Assembly: GCF_018283645.1 (NCBI RefSeq)
Contig: NZ_JAGSXH010000042.1
Span: 1-47,627, forward strand
DNA: 47,627 nucleotides
Origin: Actinocrinis puniceicyclus
Lineage (GTDB): Bacteria; Actinomycetota; Actinomycetes; Streptomycetales; Catenulisporaceae
Reading direction: 5' to 3'
Shown here: in pieces, positions 30,818 to 34,922 of the stretch
Layout: each line of letters begins with the position of its first letter
Numbering within the stretch: the stretch's first letter is position 1
Program-made: the position numbers and the translations under genes
Notes under the pieces: generated by a model
Told to the model about the DNA's origin: nothing
The model's database searches: none
The model's input: the letters and a program-made list of their open reading frames with translations, nothing else

Positions 30818-32365
30818 TTATGCGATACTCGGGCTGGTGCCGCTGAGCATGCCTTGCGTGGTGTTTGCGTTGCCGCTGGAACCCCAGACGATGAGGCTTC
30901 CGGTATTGGCCTCGAACGCCTCTTCGGATCCGCCGTTGGGCTGCGCGGTGATGGCGGGACTCGTGCCGGCCATCATGCCCTGCCCAGTATCGGCGTTGCC
31001 GCTGGAACCCCAGAGAATCAGATTCCCTGAGTTTGCTTGGAACGCCTCTTCGTAACCTCCCGAAGTCAACGCGGCGATGGCGGGGCTGGTGCCGGCCTTC
31101 ATACCCTGCGTAGTGGTCACGGTGTTGGTCGACGGAGACCACGTGTACAGATCACCGGCGTTGGTCTGGAACGCGACCTGATACCCCCCGCTGGAGGAAG
31201 CGGCGATGCTCGGACTGGTCCCGATCATCATCGCGTCCTGAGTATTCACCAGACTCGACGGCGACCAAGTGAACAGGTTACCGGTGTTAGCCTGGAAGGC
31301 CACCTCATACCCGCCACCGGCCAGCGCGGCGATACCCGGGCTGCTGCCCTTCATCATGCCCTCGCTGGTGTTGACCACGCTCGACGGCGTCCAGGTGAAC
31401 AGGTTGCCGGTGTTGGCCTGGAAAGCGACCTCATACCCGCCATTGGGGGATGCCGCGATTGCCGGGCTGGTGCCGGCCATCATGCCTTCCTGCGTGTTGA
31501 TCAAGCCGCTGGGTCCGGTCACATACAAGTCCCCATTGTTGGCCTGGAAGGCAATCTCATGCCCACCACCGGCCAGCGCGGCGATACTCGGGCTCGTGCC
31601 CTTCATCATGCCCTCGCCAGTGTCGGCCGGCCCGGATGACGATGAGTAGGTGAACAGATCGGTGTTGTTAGCTTGGAAGGCCGATTCGAAGCCCGAACTC
31701 GACGTCAGCCCGACTGGCGTCACATAAGCGCTGATGGTCATGCCGATGTACGTCGGCGTAGATCCGACGGTTCGCTCAGAGGCGGAGATGTTCACGGCCT
31801 CTACCCGCGACGTGTCAGCCCAGTAGGCCTCGGAGCCGCCGCTAGCGCCACCAAAGTCGCCGTTTGCGGTCTGGATGGACCCATCGGGATTGACGGCGGC
31901 AACCAGTCCGACGTGGTCGGCAACTCCTCCACCCGTGTAGTTGAAGACGATGGCGTCGCCGACCCGCGGTACATACGAGGTTGACGTGTGCAGAGTGCCG
32001 TTGTTGGAGCCGTAGGTGTAGAAGCTGCCCGAACCTGCGGTCAGACCGCTGATGTTGATGGTGCCGCCGGACGCGTTCTGCCAAACCCACTTCGCGAAGT
32101 CGGAGCACCAGTACTCGCCGTATCCGGACCCGTTGACGGTCGTGTAAGTGCAGCTGCCTCCGAACGCGTTACCACCAAGGCTGTTGTTGGAACTGTTGAC
32201 AGTGGAGCACCAGCCGGCTCCCTTGCCGATGTTGGCCAAAGCTAGGCTGGCTATGTCATTCGTGGTGGTCGCCGAGGCGGGGGCTGCGGTGATGTACGCA
32301 GCAGCGGGCGCGAGGATCAAGGCGGCCAGGGTAGTGACCGCTGTACGGCGGACGGCGCGAGACAT
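30818..32365 (-). CDS. Secreted CHAP-domain hydrolase with seven C-terminal repeats
   Basis: ATG at 32365 has GGAG five bases upstream. Residues 1-32 are a signal peptide (cut near PASATTT). A CHAP amidase/peptidase domain (about 35-220) shows catalytic Cys87 in EYWCSDFAKWVW and His151 in ADHVGLVAAV, so it likely cleaves peptidoglycan cross-links or stem peptides. Residues ~225-515 are seven repeats of ~42 residues, each with F-Q-A-N-x-G-x-L-F/Y-x-W and G-M-M-x-G-T-S-P-x-I-A-A, probably a beta-propeller-like or substrate-binding array. The protein stops inside the next repeat unit (GTSPSIA). It is the last gene of a four-gene operon that starts with a small secreted peptide. GC is lower than in flanking housekeeping genes. 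A role in wall remodelling or lysis of other cells is inferred. Confidence 0.88.
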   Translation of the reverse strand: MSRAVRRTAVTTLAALILAPAAAYITAAPASATTTNDIASLALANIGKGAGWCSTVNSSNNSLGGNAFGGSCTYTTVNGSGYGEYWCSDFAKWVWQNASGGTINISGLTAGSGSFYTYGSNNGTLHTSTSYVPRVGDAIVFNYTGGGVADHVGLVAAVNPDGSIQTANGDFGGASGGSEAYWADTSRVEAVNISASERTVGSTPTYIGMTISAYVTPVGLTSSSGFESAFQANNTDLFTYSSSSGPADTGEGMMKGTSPSIAALAGGGHEIAFQANNGDLYVTGPSGLINTQEGMMAGTSPAIAASPNGGYEVAFQANTGNLFTWTPSSVVNTSEGMMKGSSPGIAALAGGGYEVAFQANTGNLFTWSPSSLVNTQDAMMIGTSPSIAASSSGGYQVAFQTNAGDLYTWSPSTNTVTTTQGMKAGTSPAIAALTSGGYEEAFQANSGNLILWGSSGNADTGQGMMAGTSPAITAQPNGGSEEAFEANTGSLIVWGSSGNANTTQGMLSGTSPSIA

Positions 32366-32421
32366 GAGCACTCCGTAATGTGTCAGTAGGTGAATATGGG
32401 TTACGCGCAGGGCGCGGCGGA

Positions 32422-33189
32422 TTAGCCGGCAGTGAGCCGGCTGGGGAGGCTGGTGCGGGCGAGTTGCGTGCCGCCAGGCAGTTCGACGGCGTAAAGCGTG
32501 GCGGCGAGGGATTTGGCCGGGTTACTCGCGGAGAGGGCCAGCCGATAGCGGATCGTGGTGCTCGCGCCGGGTTGAAGGTCGATACCGCCAATGGCAGTGG
32601 CCAGGAAGCCAGGGTTGCCGTCGCCTTCGGGCATCGGAGCGTTCTGCCAGGCGCCGGTTGCGGTGTTGAAGCGCTGGAGGGTTCCCTGGGCGCAGTTGCA
32701 GGGTCCGCCAACGATCTGGAAAAGCGGCGCTACGTCGGATGCGTCAATGGTGCTGTGATTGGTGAAGGTGGCGGTGAATTCGACCGCAGGGCCGCCAGCG
32801 GTAATCGTGGCGGGAATGCCGGTGAGTTGGGCGCTGATCGCTCCTGCGGGCAGGGTCGATGTGGTGTGGGTCGCAGGACTCATTGACGGGGCACTCGTTG
32901 GTATGCCGGCAGACAACTTGACAGATCCGCTGGCTGGGCCCGTGGTCGTCGGCGTCCCGGTCGGAGTGTTCGTCGTGATGGGCGGGTTAACGGAAGGGGT
33001 CAGGCCCGCGGGGCTTGCGGTGACGCCGACAGTTGTCCTAAGTGCGTGCGGCGCTCCGGCCGAGGCGGTGGTGTGGGCCGTAATGGCCAGCGCGGTGGTG
33101 GCTACGGCCGCGGTGACGACGGGAACGGCCACCACAAGCGCTACTATCGAATATTTTGCTTTTACCGGCAGCCGAAAGGTCGTTTTCAT
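32422..33189 (-). CDS. Membrane-anchored or secreted Thr/Pro-rich protein
   Basis: The 255-residue protein starts MKTTFRLPVKAKYSIVALVV; residues ~12-37 form a hydrophobic signal anchor or signal peptide. A Thr/Ser/Pro-rich linker (TPSVNPPITTNTPTGTPTTT) spans about residues 60-110. The C-terminal ~135 residues form a beta-rich domain: SAQLTGIPATITAGGPAVEF, then TATFTNHSTIDASD, GPCNCAQGTLQRFN and GASTTIRYRLALSAS. This resembles extracellular Ig-like or DUF11/CARDB-type sandwiches, with two nearby cysteines. Its start overlaps the stop of the 98-residue gene by four bases (ATGA), so the two are coupled. The function is unknown. As part of the peptide-CHAP operon it may display or capture a partner at the cell surface. 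Confidence 0.78.
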   Translation of the reverse strand: MKTTFRLPVKAKYSIVALVVAVPVVTAAVATTALAITAHTTASAGAPHALRTTVGVTASPAGLTPSVNPPITTNTPTGTPTTTGPASGSVKLSAGIPTSAPSMSPATHTTSTLPAGAISAQLTGIPATITAGGPAVEFTATFTNHSTIDASDVAPLFQIVGGPCNCAQGTLQRFNTATGAWQNAPMPEGDGNPGFLATAIGGIDLQPGASTTIRYRLALSASNPAKSLAATLYAVELPGGTQLARTSLPSRLTAG

Positions 33190-33482
33190 CTCTTCATCCT
33201 TAGCCGAGCGACGAATGGCTCAGAGTAATTCACGGAAATCGAGGACGAGGCCTGGTATGCCCTCTCGAGAAGGCGGGTAGCACGTTCCCACGAGTCAATT
33301 TCTGAGCGTTCCCCGAAGAACATGATGAGGTCAATACGACCTGGACCGGCGCGGGCTCGGATATGTTCTAAGCCGTCTTCTTCAACGGTGTGCGCCCAGA
33401 GGATGTCGAGGAGTTCCGCCGCGTCACCAGGGCTGCTAGCTGCAGGGCCCTTCGTGGTCAGAACGACGTGGATGGCGTGCAC
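33186..33482 (-). CDS. Small cytosolic protein of unknown function (98 aa)
   Basis: GTG at 33482 follows the stop of the small-peptide gene by three bases, with GGGGA-rich sequence upstream. The product has no signal or membrane segment. It begins HAIHVVLTTKGPAASSPGDA and continues with ELLDILWAHTVEEDGLEHIR, ARAGPGRIDLIMFFGERSEI and DSWERATRLLERAY. The alternating beta/alpha pattern suggests a compact ferredoxin-like or similar alpha/beta fold. I do not recognise a named family. Its position, squeezed between a secreted peptide gene and a coupled surface-protein gene, suggests a role tied to that peptide, such as a chaperone, immunity or maturation partner. That is inference. Confidence 0.75.
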   Translation of the reverse strand: MHAIHVVLTTKGPAASSPGDAAELLDILWAHTVEEDGLEHIRARAGPGRIDLIMFFGERSEIDSWERATRLLERAYQASSSISVNYSEPFVARLRMKR

Positions 33483-33485
33483 GGG

Positions 33486-33635
33486 TCATCCCCATGTCAG
33501 GTCGGCGGGCCGCACCACGGCCGAGGAAACGCTCGCCGCAGATCCGGATTCGACCGTCGATATGGCGTTGGAAACACCTGCGAAACCGATTACAAATAGA
33601 ATCGAAGCAGTGATCGTGCGGATCGAGGAAGACAT
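33486..33635 (-). CDS. Small secreted peptide precursor, 49 aa
   Basis: ATG at 33635 has GGAAAGGG upstream. The 49-residue product has a clear signal peptide (SSSIRTITASILFVIGFAGV), with a likely cut after SNA. That leaves a mature peptide of about 24 residues, rich in Ser, Val and Ala and ending in PADLTWG. There are no cysteines, so it is not a disulfide peptide or lanthipeptide. The stop lies three bases before the start of the 98-residue gene, making it the first gene of a four-gene operon. It is divergent from a TrmB/LuxR-type regulator, with palindromes between. A role as an extracellular signal or as the substrate of downstream gene products is a hypothesis. The gene is easily missed because longer overlapping frames obscure the start. 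Confidence 0.75.
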   Translation of the reverse strand: MSSSIRTITASILFVIGFAGVSNAISTVESGSAASVSSAVVRPADLTWG

Positions 33636-33675
33636 GGGGGTACCCTTTCCCGTGCATGGTTTGATTAGCGATAAA

Positions 33676-33772
33676 TTCCCGGAACCGGGTCTTGGTCGTT
33701 GCATCACCCTGTTTCTCGGGCGACCGCTTCCAATGACTACTTTCCGGGAAAGGCAGTGGTTGCGGAAGCGGT
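33676..33772. promoter_or_regulatory. Nested palindromes in peptide/LuxR divergent promoter
   Basis: CTTTCCGGGAAAG (33740-33752) is a palindrome with a one-base centre. It is framed by ACCGCTTCC (33723-33731) and GGAAGCGGT (33764-33772), an outer inverted repeat that is almost concentric with it. TTCCCGGAA at 33676-33684 is the reverse complement of the inner core TTCCGGGAA, giving a second copy 66 bases away. These are likely operator sites, most simply for the adjacent LuxR-type regulator. Confidence 0.6.
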
Positions 33773-33938
33773 TCCACCAGTCACCAATCGGCCTGGCACC
33801 AAGGCGCCAGACCGAGTGCATCCGCGGTTGCCGCTCGGATGCCAGGACCCTGTCTTGAACACGGCTACGCGAGCTGAGATTATGAGCTTGCTGCCATCGC
33901 TCAACTGTGCGATGCCGACTCAGTCGAGGGGTGACGGG

Positions 33939-34922
33939 GTGTTGGAACCGTTAGGTCTCACCGCGATGGCGCAGTCCGTCTATCACCTGATGCTCGAGCG
34001 ACCTGAGTTCGGAGTCGCACAGTTAGCTGACGCGACAGGGTTCACGGAGGCCAGCGTGCGCGCTGCCCTCGACGATCTCGCAGACCTGATGCTGGTGCGG
34101 GTCTCGCGCGAGGACCCAAACCGGCTGCGGGCAGTGAGCCCCGAAGTGGGTCTCGCGGACCTGATGCGTCGCCACGAGGCTGACCTCGCCGCCCGTCAGG
34201 CTAAGGTCGCCGCAGCTCGGGCGGCTGTCACCCGGCTGGTCGCCGAACGGGCCGACGCCTTCAACCCCGGGTCCGCGAACGGCGAGCGACTGGTCGGCCT
34301 TGACGCGATCCAGCACCGTTTGGAGAGCTTGGGCCACGCCGCGACCAAAGAGTGCGTAGGTGTACACCCTGGCGCAGCGCAACGCGCGGAGGACCTAGCG
34401 GAGGGCCGCTTGCTGGACGCCGAGGCCCTGAGCCGCGGAGTGGCGTTTCGGACTCTGTACCAGGACAGCGTGCGCAACGACCCCGCCACCATCAACCACG
34501 CGCATTGGCTCATGGACCGCGGGGGTGAGGTGCGCACAGCTCCAATCGTGCCGCAACGGCTGGTCATCGTTGACCGCACCCACGCGCTGGTACCCCTGGA
34601 CCCAGCTGACACTCGAAAGGGTGCCTTGTACGTGACCGAACCCGGCATCGTCGCGGCACTGGTAGACCTCTTCGAACAGGCATGGGCCACCGCGGTCCCC
34701 CTCGGCGCGACCCGCACCCGCGACCCAGACACCGGCCTGAGCGACACGGAACGCGAACTGCTCAGCCTGCTCAGTTCCGGCATGACAGACGAGGCCGCCG
34801 GCCACCGTCTCGGACTGTCTCTGCGGACCATACGCCGCATGATGGCCTCCATCATGGAACGGCTTGCTGCGACCAGCCGTTTCGAGGCCGGGCTCAAGGC
34901 CGCGAAACGCGGCTGGCTCTGA
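33939..34922 (+). CDS. TrmB/LuxR-type transcriptional regulator
   Basis: GTG at 33939 is chosen because GAGGGG lies seven bases upstream. The protein then starts VLEPLGLTAMAQSVYHLMLE, the usual beginning of this family. Of 327 residues, 1-65 form a winged helix of TrmB/MarR type (FGVAQLADATGFTEASVRAA, LDDLADLMLVRV). The middle ~190 residues include a coiled coil and a domain (VAFRTLYQDSVRNDPATINH, then MDRGGEVRTAP) that recalls the PLD-like sensor part of TrmB regulators. The end is a LuxR helix-turn-helix (LSDTERELLSLLSSGMTDEA, LGLSLRTIRRMMASIMERL). Such dual-HTH regulators commonly sit beside small-peptide genes in actinomycetes. It is divergent from the secreted-peptide operon. Confidence 0.88.
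   Translation: MLEPLGLTAMAQSVYHLMLERPEFGVAQLADATGFTEASVRAALDDLADLMLVRVSREDPNRLRAVSPEVGLADLMRRHEADLAARQAKVAAARAAVTRLVAERADAFNPGSANGERLVGLDAIQHRLESLGHAATKECVGVHPGAAQRAEDLAEGRLLDAEALSRGVAFRTLYQDSVRNDPATINHAHWLMDRGGEVRTAPIVPQRLVIVDRTHALVPLDPADTRKGALYVTEPGIVAALVDLFEQAWATAVPLGATRTRDPDTGLSDTERELLSLLSSGMTDEAAGHRLGLSLRTIRRMMASIMERLAATSRFEAGLKAAKRGWL

Follow-up and report, generated by a model that had tools for sequence, protein, structure and literature searches.

A conserved Streptomycetales cassette that pairs short secreted peptides bearing tryptophan or CxxC tails with a divergent TrmB-LuxR regulator, and its probable role in peptide signalling

We analysed a 47,627-nt stretch (hereafter the window; contig NZ_JAGSXH010000042.1) which is one contig of the 6.77-Mb genome of Actinocrinis puniceicyclus, a member of the Streptomycetales. 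The window contains four tightly packed minus-strand genes, the first of which encodes a short secreted peptide, opposite a divergent regulator with two helix-turn-helix (HTH) domains. This cassette is part of a conserved module, in which the peptide is probably a signal sensed by the regulator. The features concerned are as follows (aa, amino acids; nt, nucleotides).

33486..33635, minus strand: gene for a 49-aa Sec-type propeptide found by open reading frame (ORF) calling, with signal residues 1-24, an Ala/Ser-rich linker and the tail PADLTWG.
33489..33509, minus strand: codons of the tail P-A-D-L-T-W-G, proposed to be the mature signal or to form its core; at family level the tail is conserved and the linker is not.
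33186..33482, minus strand: gene for a 98-aa small protein, with a GTG start, 3 nt past the peptide stop codon.
32422..33189, minus strand: gene for a 255-aa predicted secreted or surface protein, overlapping the 98-aa gene by 4 nt.
30818..32371, minus strand: gene for a 517-aa secreted CHAP protein (Pfam) with C-terminal repeats, the proposed output gene.
33939..34922, plus strand: divergent regulator of 327 aa, with an N-terminal TrmB HTH, a middle domain and a C-terminal LuxR/GerE HTH.
34245..34694, plus strand: middle domain of the regulator (residues 103-252), proposed to sense the peptide and overlapping a weak DUF7436/DUF6879 match.
33793..33810, strand not assigned: operator-like palindrome CTGGCACCAAGGCGCCAG, differing from CTGGCACCNNGGTGCCAG at one position and lying 157 nt upstream of the start of the peptide gene.

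The 49-aa product reads MSSS...SNA and then ISTVESGSAASVSSAVVRPADLTWG, and would be cleaved after S-N-A, as judged by eye. A preliminary description, made from the letters of the window, had proposed a cysteine-free 49-aa signal-peptide ORF ending PADLTWG, followed by a 3-base gap and then a 4-base overlap, and the ORF coordinates agree on each of these points. Its last gap of about 56 bases, between the 255-aa and 517-aa ORFs, is 50 bases as called, and is 56 if an in-frame ATG two codons further on is the start. Pfam likewise returned the CHAP domain of the hydrolase and the TrmB and LuxR/GerE domains of the regulator that had been named. Neither the 49-aa nor the 98-aa product matched a Pfam, NCBIfam or PHROG family, and the 255-aa protein matched no Pfam family above the cut-off. 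The regulator probably starts at GTG 33939, giving 327 aa, because this start agrees with the alignment to a 65%-identical homologue; the same alignment set aside the earliest possible start in this reading frame, at 33699.

The small 98-aa protein was found in 17 of 60 relatives by single-sequence search, in 97 of 293 genomes of the order with a profile of 16 sequences, and in 20 of 394 genomes of the class with a profile of 29 sequences. The latter 20 comprise 16 genomes of the order (A. puniceicyclus included), three from a single other family and one, a weak match, from yet another. Two sets of loci were taken from the matches listed: a first set of 100 loci (70 genomes) from the 293-genome search, and a held-out set of 80 loci from 49 genomes new to the analysis. 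Upstream peptides were called blind to the tail, as short ORFs that end beside the small gene and encode both a basic N-terminus and a hydrophobic stretch. Calls were obtained at 57 loci of the first set, 54 of which bear a Trp motif or C-x-x-C tail, and at 73 held-out loci (65 with Trp beyond residue 20, seven with a C..C tail, one with neither), so that 126 of the 130 pooled calls carry such a tail. Four calls were dropped as motif-less, implausible frames (L096, L111 and L123; L236 in the held-out set), and one locus (L066) was added by hand after widening the hydrophobic window, leaving 55 upstream-peptide loci in the first set.

A closer inspection of the 45 first-set loci without an upstream peptide revealed a peptide downstream of the small gene in 16, after rejection of one (L085) of 17 downstream calls. 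In this permuted order the divergent regulator is followed by the small gene and then by a W-tail peptide (L108, L069, L111, L118, L132-L134, L136, L139-L143, L145, L147, L149), with tails such as DMIWG, DVTWG, DAGWQ and NMGWQ; L111, dropped as an upstream call, is among them. L108 is a second cassette of the A. puniceicyclus genome (contig C277), with the tail NISWD, and a third encodes a peptide with ...GGFEWS.... Conservation of the short ORF beside the 98-aa gene in relatives, on which the preliminary description had made its case depend, was found in 143 of 180 loci (55 and 72 upstream, 16 downstream), and the regulator lies opposite in 126 of these 143. The four-gene cassette and its divergent TrmB-LuxR regulator are therefore part of a conserved module, of which the 255-aa surface gene, previously counted as a member, was not shown to be a constant component. 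At least two peptide cassettes occur in 40 genomes (17 and 23 in the two sets) among the loci fetched, and copies are also found on plasmids.

Several loci depart from this arrangement. L144, L146, L148, L152, L103 and L107 have NGFSWG or GFGWG peptides by the small gene and no regulator of this family in the stretch; the next genes at the first four look glycosyltransferase-like by eye. L058, L064, L073 and L076 have no separate peptide; instead, the small ORF is extended in frame at its N-terminus by a conserved stretch that contains Cys (GHGCGPKC...HVWS). In L079 the small gene is preceded by a frame that ends ...MFFAFFGLIWD, suggesting a leaderless or degenerate tail peptide, whilst L025 of Streptomyces capoamus appears decayed, its signal-peptide-like frame reading on without a tail and its regulator match being short. 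Twenty more regulators, 18 of which are distant, mostly have no peptide in the surrounding stretch under a filter for W or C..C near the end; credible cases are L301, with a close regulator, and L291, and L282 is possible. L301 (G061 C3:125630-126631) has a divergent peptide ending ...KTDMGWQ, away from all five small-gene matches listed for its genome. L291 (G226 contig C1, 172884-180693) is a tandem array of TrmB-LuxR genes adjoining a signal-peptide ORF that ends ...TALDFVWA. No relatives of the regulator were found in viral contigs.

The tail is either a Trp motif, often xxxW-G/D and present in one to five copies, or C-x-x-C. Amongst the 55 upstream peptides of the first set, 42 are of the Trp type (20 of them with two or three copies) and 13 of the CxxC type. 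The D-x-T-W-G-like tail singled out in the preliminary description does exist, as merely one of many tail types. Of the 126 upstream peptides, 109 have either W among their last three residues (90) or a C..C tail (19), and the other 17 have W further in; the corresponding figure is 25 of 190 calls (24 W, one C..C) in an opposite-strand background that left out the long frames which the upstream caller kept. Two earlier backgrounds were rejected. The first (84 W-tails in 469 calls elsewhere) was contaminated, for example by downstream peptides and by fragments of the regulator, which ends in GWL; the second (43 of 294) had not been cleared of downstream peptides, which is how these came to light.

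In 17 of 22 precursors with several copies (the 20 of the first set and two examined singly) the copies are fully identical, as in VIGWD x3, SINWD x2 and GFDWG x3; one held-out precursor carries five W motifs. The four residues around W have a mean identity of 0.95 within and 0.39 between precursors (n = 22), a difference reached by 0 of 20000 permutations. The copies thus stay alike although the family as a whole drifts apart, which points to a single receptor as their reader. Moreover, over 12 non-overlapping pairs the motif has a ratio of nonsynonymous to synonymous polymorphism (pN/pS) of 0.20, against 0.84 for the linker and 0.83 for the signal sequence. Between loci whose regulators are 80-90% identical (n = 14), identity is 72% for the tail and 39% for the linker.

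We then sought the part of the regulator with which the tail varies. The LuxR/GerE HTH was recognised by Pfam in 26 of 27 regulators and the TrmB HTH in 18 of 27 at E<=0.001. TrmB proteins are sugar regulators; the window protein shares their N-terminal winged HTH, lying just above the Pfam cut-off (25.8 bits against 25.6), and differs in the added LuxR HTH. The 20 Pfam families matched by the 27 regulators (E<=0.001) include no tetratricopeptide repeat (TPR), no autoinducer-binding domain and no C-terminal sugar-binding domain of TrmB proteins. The middle domain gave weak matches only, to DUF7436 in 15 and DUF6879 in 9 of 27. Searched with a 27-sequence profile, the PDB gave matches on the C-terminal HTH, some extending into the end of the middle domain, and one on the N-terminal third; none was centred on the middle domain. 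A structure model of the regulator, built from a two-sequence alignment, was poor (mean predicted local distance difference test, pLDDT, 48).

Correlations were computed over 91 W loci of 109 merged, excluding CxxC loci and loci without a close regulator. The Spearman correlation of tail similarity was highest with the middle domain (0.54), against 0.44 with the coil, 0.43 with the small protein and 0.38 with either HTH. Once the middle domain is controlled for, the other segments have partial correlations close to zero (-0.07 to 0.06); controlling for any one of them leaves 0.33-0.41 for the middle domain. For pairs below 65% identity the values are 0.24 for the middle domain, 0.16 for the coil, 0.16 for the small protein, and 0.08 and 0.05 for the HTHs. 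With columns matched for variability the middle domain gives 0.53 against 0.39, and it leads in all 200 draws among divergent pairs. In a smaller first set (35 loci) the small protein ranked last, and the order was otherwise unchanged. Residual mutual information with the tail was higher for middle-domain than for HTH columns (p = 1.3e-4), and the top 20 co-varying columns after background correction comprise 12 in the middle domain, four in the coil, three in the HTHs, one in the linker and none of the 87 in the small protein. The column that co-varies best is R190, which corresponds to His187 of the 327-aa window protein. Changes at four tail positions require 63 steps on the middle-domain tree, 66 on the full, 70 on the HTH and 73 on the small-protein tree, with column bootstraps (12 each) of 63-69 for the middle domain and 67-75 for the HTHs. 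One locus (L266, with a second W close behind the first) was excluded from the mutual-information and tree analyses. Across these measures the tail consistently, if only moderately, tracks the middle domain better than the HTHs.

Enumeration of inverted repeats in the divergent regions revealed a dominant palindrome, CTGGCACC-NN-GGTGCCAG. With at most two mismatches it is found in 17 of 45 peptide loci of the first set, in which it was discovered (19 of 45 at up to three). It is absent from all 34 first-set loci that lack an upstream peptide, from 470 control segments and from the shuffled sequences, of which there were 20 for each of 79 regions. At up to three mismatches, where the shuffle expectation is 0.35 per 79 regions and likewise per 62, held-out loci contain it in 15 of 62; 12 of these 15 sites lie 147-166 nt upstream of the peptide start. 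The genome-wide reading was restricted to sites with zero or one mismatch. The window site (33793-33810) is the only such site in its genome, and a 10.5-Mb relative has only two, one at its cassette and one 3.8 kb away. The window itself has two sites at up to three mismatches, where 0.58 are expected. The regulon under this palindrome would thus appear to be local. Another palindrome, approximately TGTCCG-N4-CGGACA, recurs in some of 47 held-out regions (within L202-L281) that lack the first, and operator types may therefore differ between subgroups. The link between peptide and regulator put forward in the preliminary description gains support from the shared operator-like site and from the co-variation of tail and middle domain.

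The 98-aa protein is predicted to adopt a ferredoxin-like fold (beta-alpha-beta-beta-alpha in the model, pLDDT 84). The model gave weak matches to varied ferredoxin-like folds (VIA Z up to 8.4), which may reflect only a common arrangement. No Foldseek match was obtained at E<=1e-3, although a family missing from such a fold search carries no information, and the PDB contains no close relative by structure or sequence. No Pfam family matched any of 29 homologues, in the alignment of which His40 is invariant. The protein is probably a cytosolic accessory of a sensing or export step.

At the level of sequence, gene order, tail conservation, homogenisation of repeats, the operator-like site and co-variation of tail and middle domain are supported. 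We consider it fairly probable, on these grounds, that the cassette is a signalling unit with exoprotein outputs, in which an exported peptide pheromone is sensed by a cytosolic dual-HTH regulator outside the RRNPP family. The precursor, with one to five short Trp-motif copies or one CxxC tail, would be exported by Sec and cleaved outside the cell to release the tail or tails. These would be re-imported, presumably by an oligopeptide permease, and would bind the middle domain of the cytosolic TrmB-LuxR regulator, altering its binding at the palindrome in the divergent promoter. From this site the regulator would govern the peptide operon, its own expression and neighbouring genes for secreted proteins, with feedback on each. 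Outputs would be the CHAP wall hydrolase in the window and, elsewhere, transglycosylases and FG-GAP or lectin-like proteins. Export, cleavage, re-import, binding and the direction of regulation are steps that we infer. Paralogous cassettes bear different tails, and therefore one cell could run several private channels.

A number of observations weigh against this interpretation. In the window cassette, a Pfam scan recognised no gene for an exporter, a protease or an importer. The divergent regulator is missing from the fetched stretch in 9 of 55 and 8 of 72 upstream-peptide loci, and is present beside 29 of 37 loci without a recognised peptide. At up to three mismatches the palindrome is lacking from 26 of 45 first-set and 47 of 62 held-out peptide loci, and genome counts at up to two mismatches show no clear excess over a reversed-pattern control (forward/control 3/3, 13/9, 8/10 and 8/6). 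The middle-domain correlation falls to 0.08 for pairs below 60% identity, and whole tail classes require the same 40 steps on all four trees. Moreover, locus pairs are not independent, linked genes share their history and the excess for the middle domain is modest.

The genes downstream bear on what the peptide might otherwise be. We scanned 56 downstream ORFs, called by a simple GC-frame rule at 47 peptide loci with a close regulator, and found FG-GAP (9), CHAP (7), Big_7 (7), transglycosylase (6), Tachylectin (4), MFS (3), SLT_3 (2), AMP-binding (2) and condensation (1) domains; no enzyme dedicated to peptide modification was recognised among the 25 Pfam families listed of 31. An antimicrobial or a product resembling ribosomally synthesised and post-translationally modified peptides (RiPPs), made under a local regulator with the small protein acting in immunity or maturation, would accommodate the MFS-type transporters in three of these ORFs, the multi-copy cores, the CxxC tails in part of the family, the several paralogues per genome and the plasmid copies. 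We nevertheless regard it as unlikely. Among the 25 listed of the 31 Pfam families matched downstream there is no lanthipeptide, radical-SAM or YcaO family; the signal sequence is an ordinary Sec type, the motif is kept within regulator clades, and the tail shows co-variation with one domain of a cytosolic regulator, a link for which an antibiotic would have no use.

On the same Pfam counts, secreted wall enzymes and surface proteins are frequent, not universal, neighbours, and the wall hydrolase proposed earlier as an output holds to that extent. The often extracellular nature of these genes (CHAP, transglycosylase, FG-GAP and Big_7 above) would suit a peptide that is itself a structural component of the cell surface or wall, co-regulated with wall hydrolases by a regulator sensing envelope stress or a sugar. 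This is distinctly improbable given that variable motifs homogenised within each precursor resemble specificity, not structure, and that the tail co-varies with the middle domain. Least probable of all is a peptide acting inside the cell or at the membrane before export, its tail being bound by the regulator or the 98-aa protein to report secretion status without cell-cell signalling. It would suit the window cassette's lack of an importer gene and the close spacing of the peptide gene to that of the small protein, which is predicted to be cytosolic (1-11 nt apart at many loci), but a released product better explains the multi-copy cores and why signal and linker are so weakly constrained.

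The pheromone interpretation invites comparison with known systems. Like the RRNPP systems of Bacillota (Rap-Phr, NprR-NprX, PlcR-PapR), as set out in passages of PMC10075063, the cassette pairs a propeptide with an adjacent regulator of 250-500 aa (here 327 aa), and the propeptide has a basic-hydrophobic N-terminus and a short C-terminal tail as candidate mature signal, a likeness that here concerns the sequence profile alone. Some RRNPP propeptides are also multi-copy, according to PMC11343458. The cassette differs in having a TrmB HTH, an unassigned middle domain and a LuxR HTH instead of TPR, in its divergent orientation, in the extra 98-aa gene and in its Actinomycetota host. It therefore resembles RRNPP signalling in its working and is not a member of that family, no TPR family having been found in the 27 regulators. 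With the actinobacterial LuxR-type regulators covered by PMC3466318 the regulator shares the C-terminal GerE/LuxR HTH, and differs from those described in its passages in that no autoinducer-binding family was found and the second HTH is of the TrmB type; the word TrmB is absent from the main text of that survey. For the import step only, an analogy is offered by BldK of S. coelicolor, a Streptomyces oligopeptide permease which, in passages of PMC9640686, takes up a 655-Da peptide presumed to be a signal, of a size class similar to the tails.

No description of such a cassette was found in open-licence PubMed Central papers (most subscription papers and preprints lie outside this scope), in keeping with its being thought undescribed at the outset, and passages of a review on actinobacterial quorum sensing contain no peptide system of this kind. 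Nor was a supporting paper found for the statement, given earlier as known, that TrmB/LuxR regulators often neighbour small-peptide genes. The module is thus widespread in Streptomyces-type bacteria and apparently undescribed. The gene class has been left unnamed by annotation, both plasmid-borne precursors examined being 'hypothetical protein' in RefSeq-derived plasmid records. A peptide with a cytosolic receptor is a known principle; the architecture of the proposed receptor and the phylum-level setting appear to be new. Signals of Actinomycetota are typically small molecules made by enzymes, with oligopeptide signals described for Bacillota, in passages of PMC10075063. There is perhaps an even chance that the cassette represents the first peptide-pheromone family of ribosomal origin in Streptomycetales to be paired with a one-component receptor of non-TPR type. 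It would form a multi-channel code with specificity from the residues around a single Trp (or from a CxxC tail) and several private channels per genome, controlling nearby genes for secreted wall hydrolases and, at a few loci, nearby genes with domains of the nonribosomal peptide synthetase type. If so, a ribosomal, genome-readable signal with a matched receptor would make many channels predictable and testable with synthetic short peptides. It would also supply defined candidates for the unidentified peptide signals thought to be imported by streptomycete permeases such as BldK, making the old question of their oligopeptide cargo more directly testable. For the bacteria that are the main producers of antibiotics, it would be relevant to development, to the turnover of the wall and to silent gene clusters.

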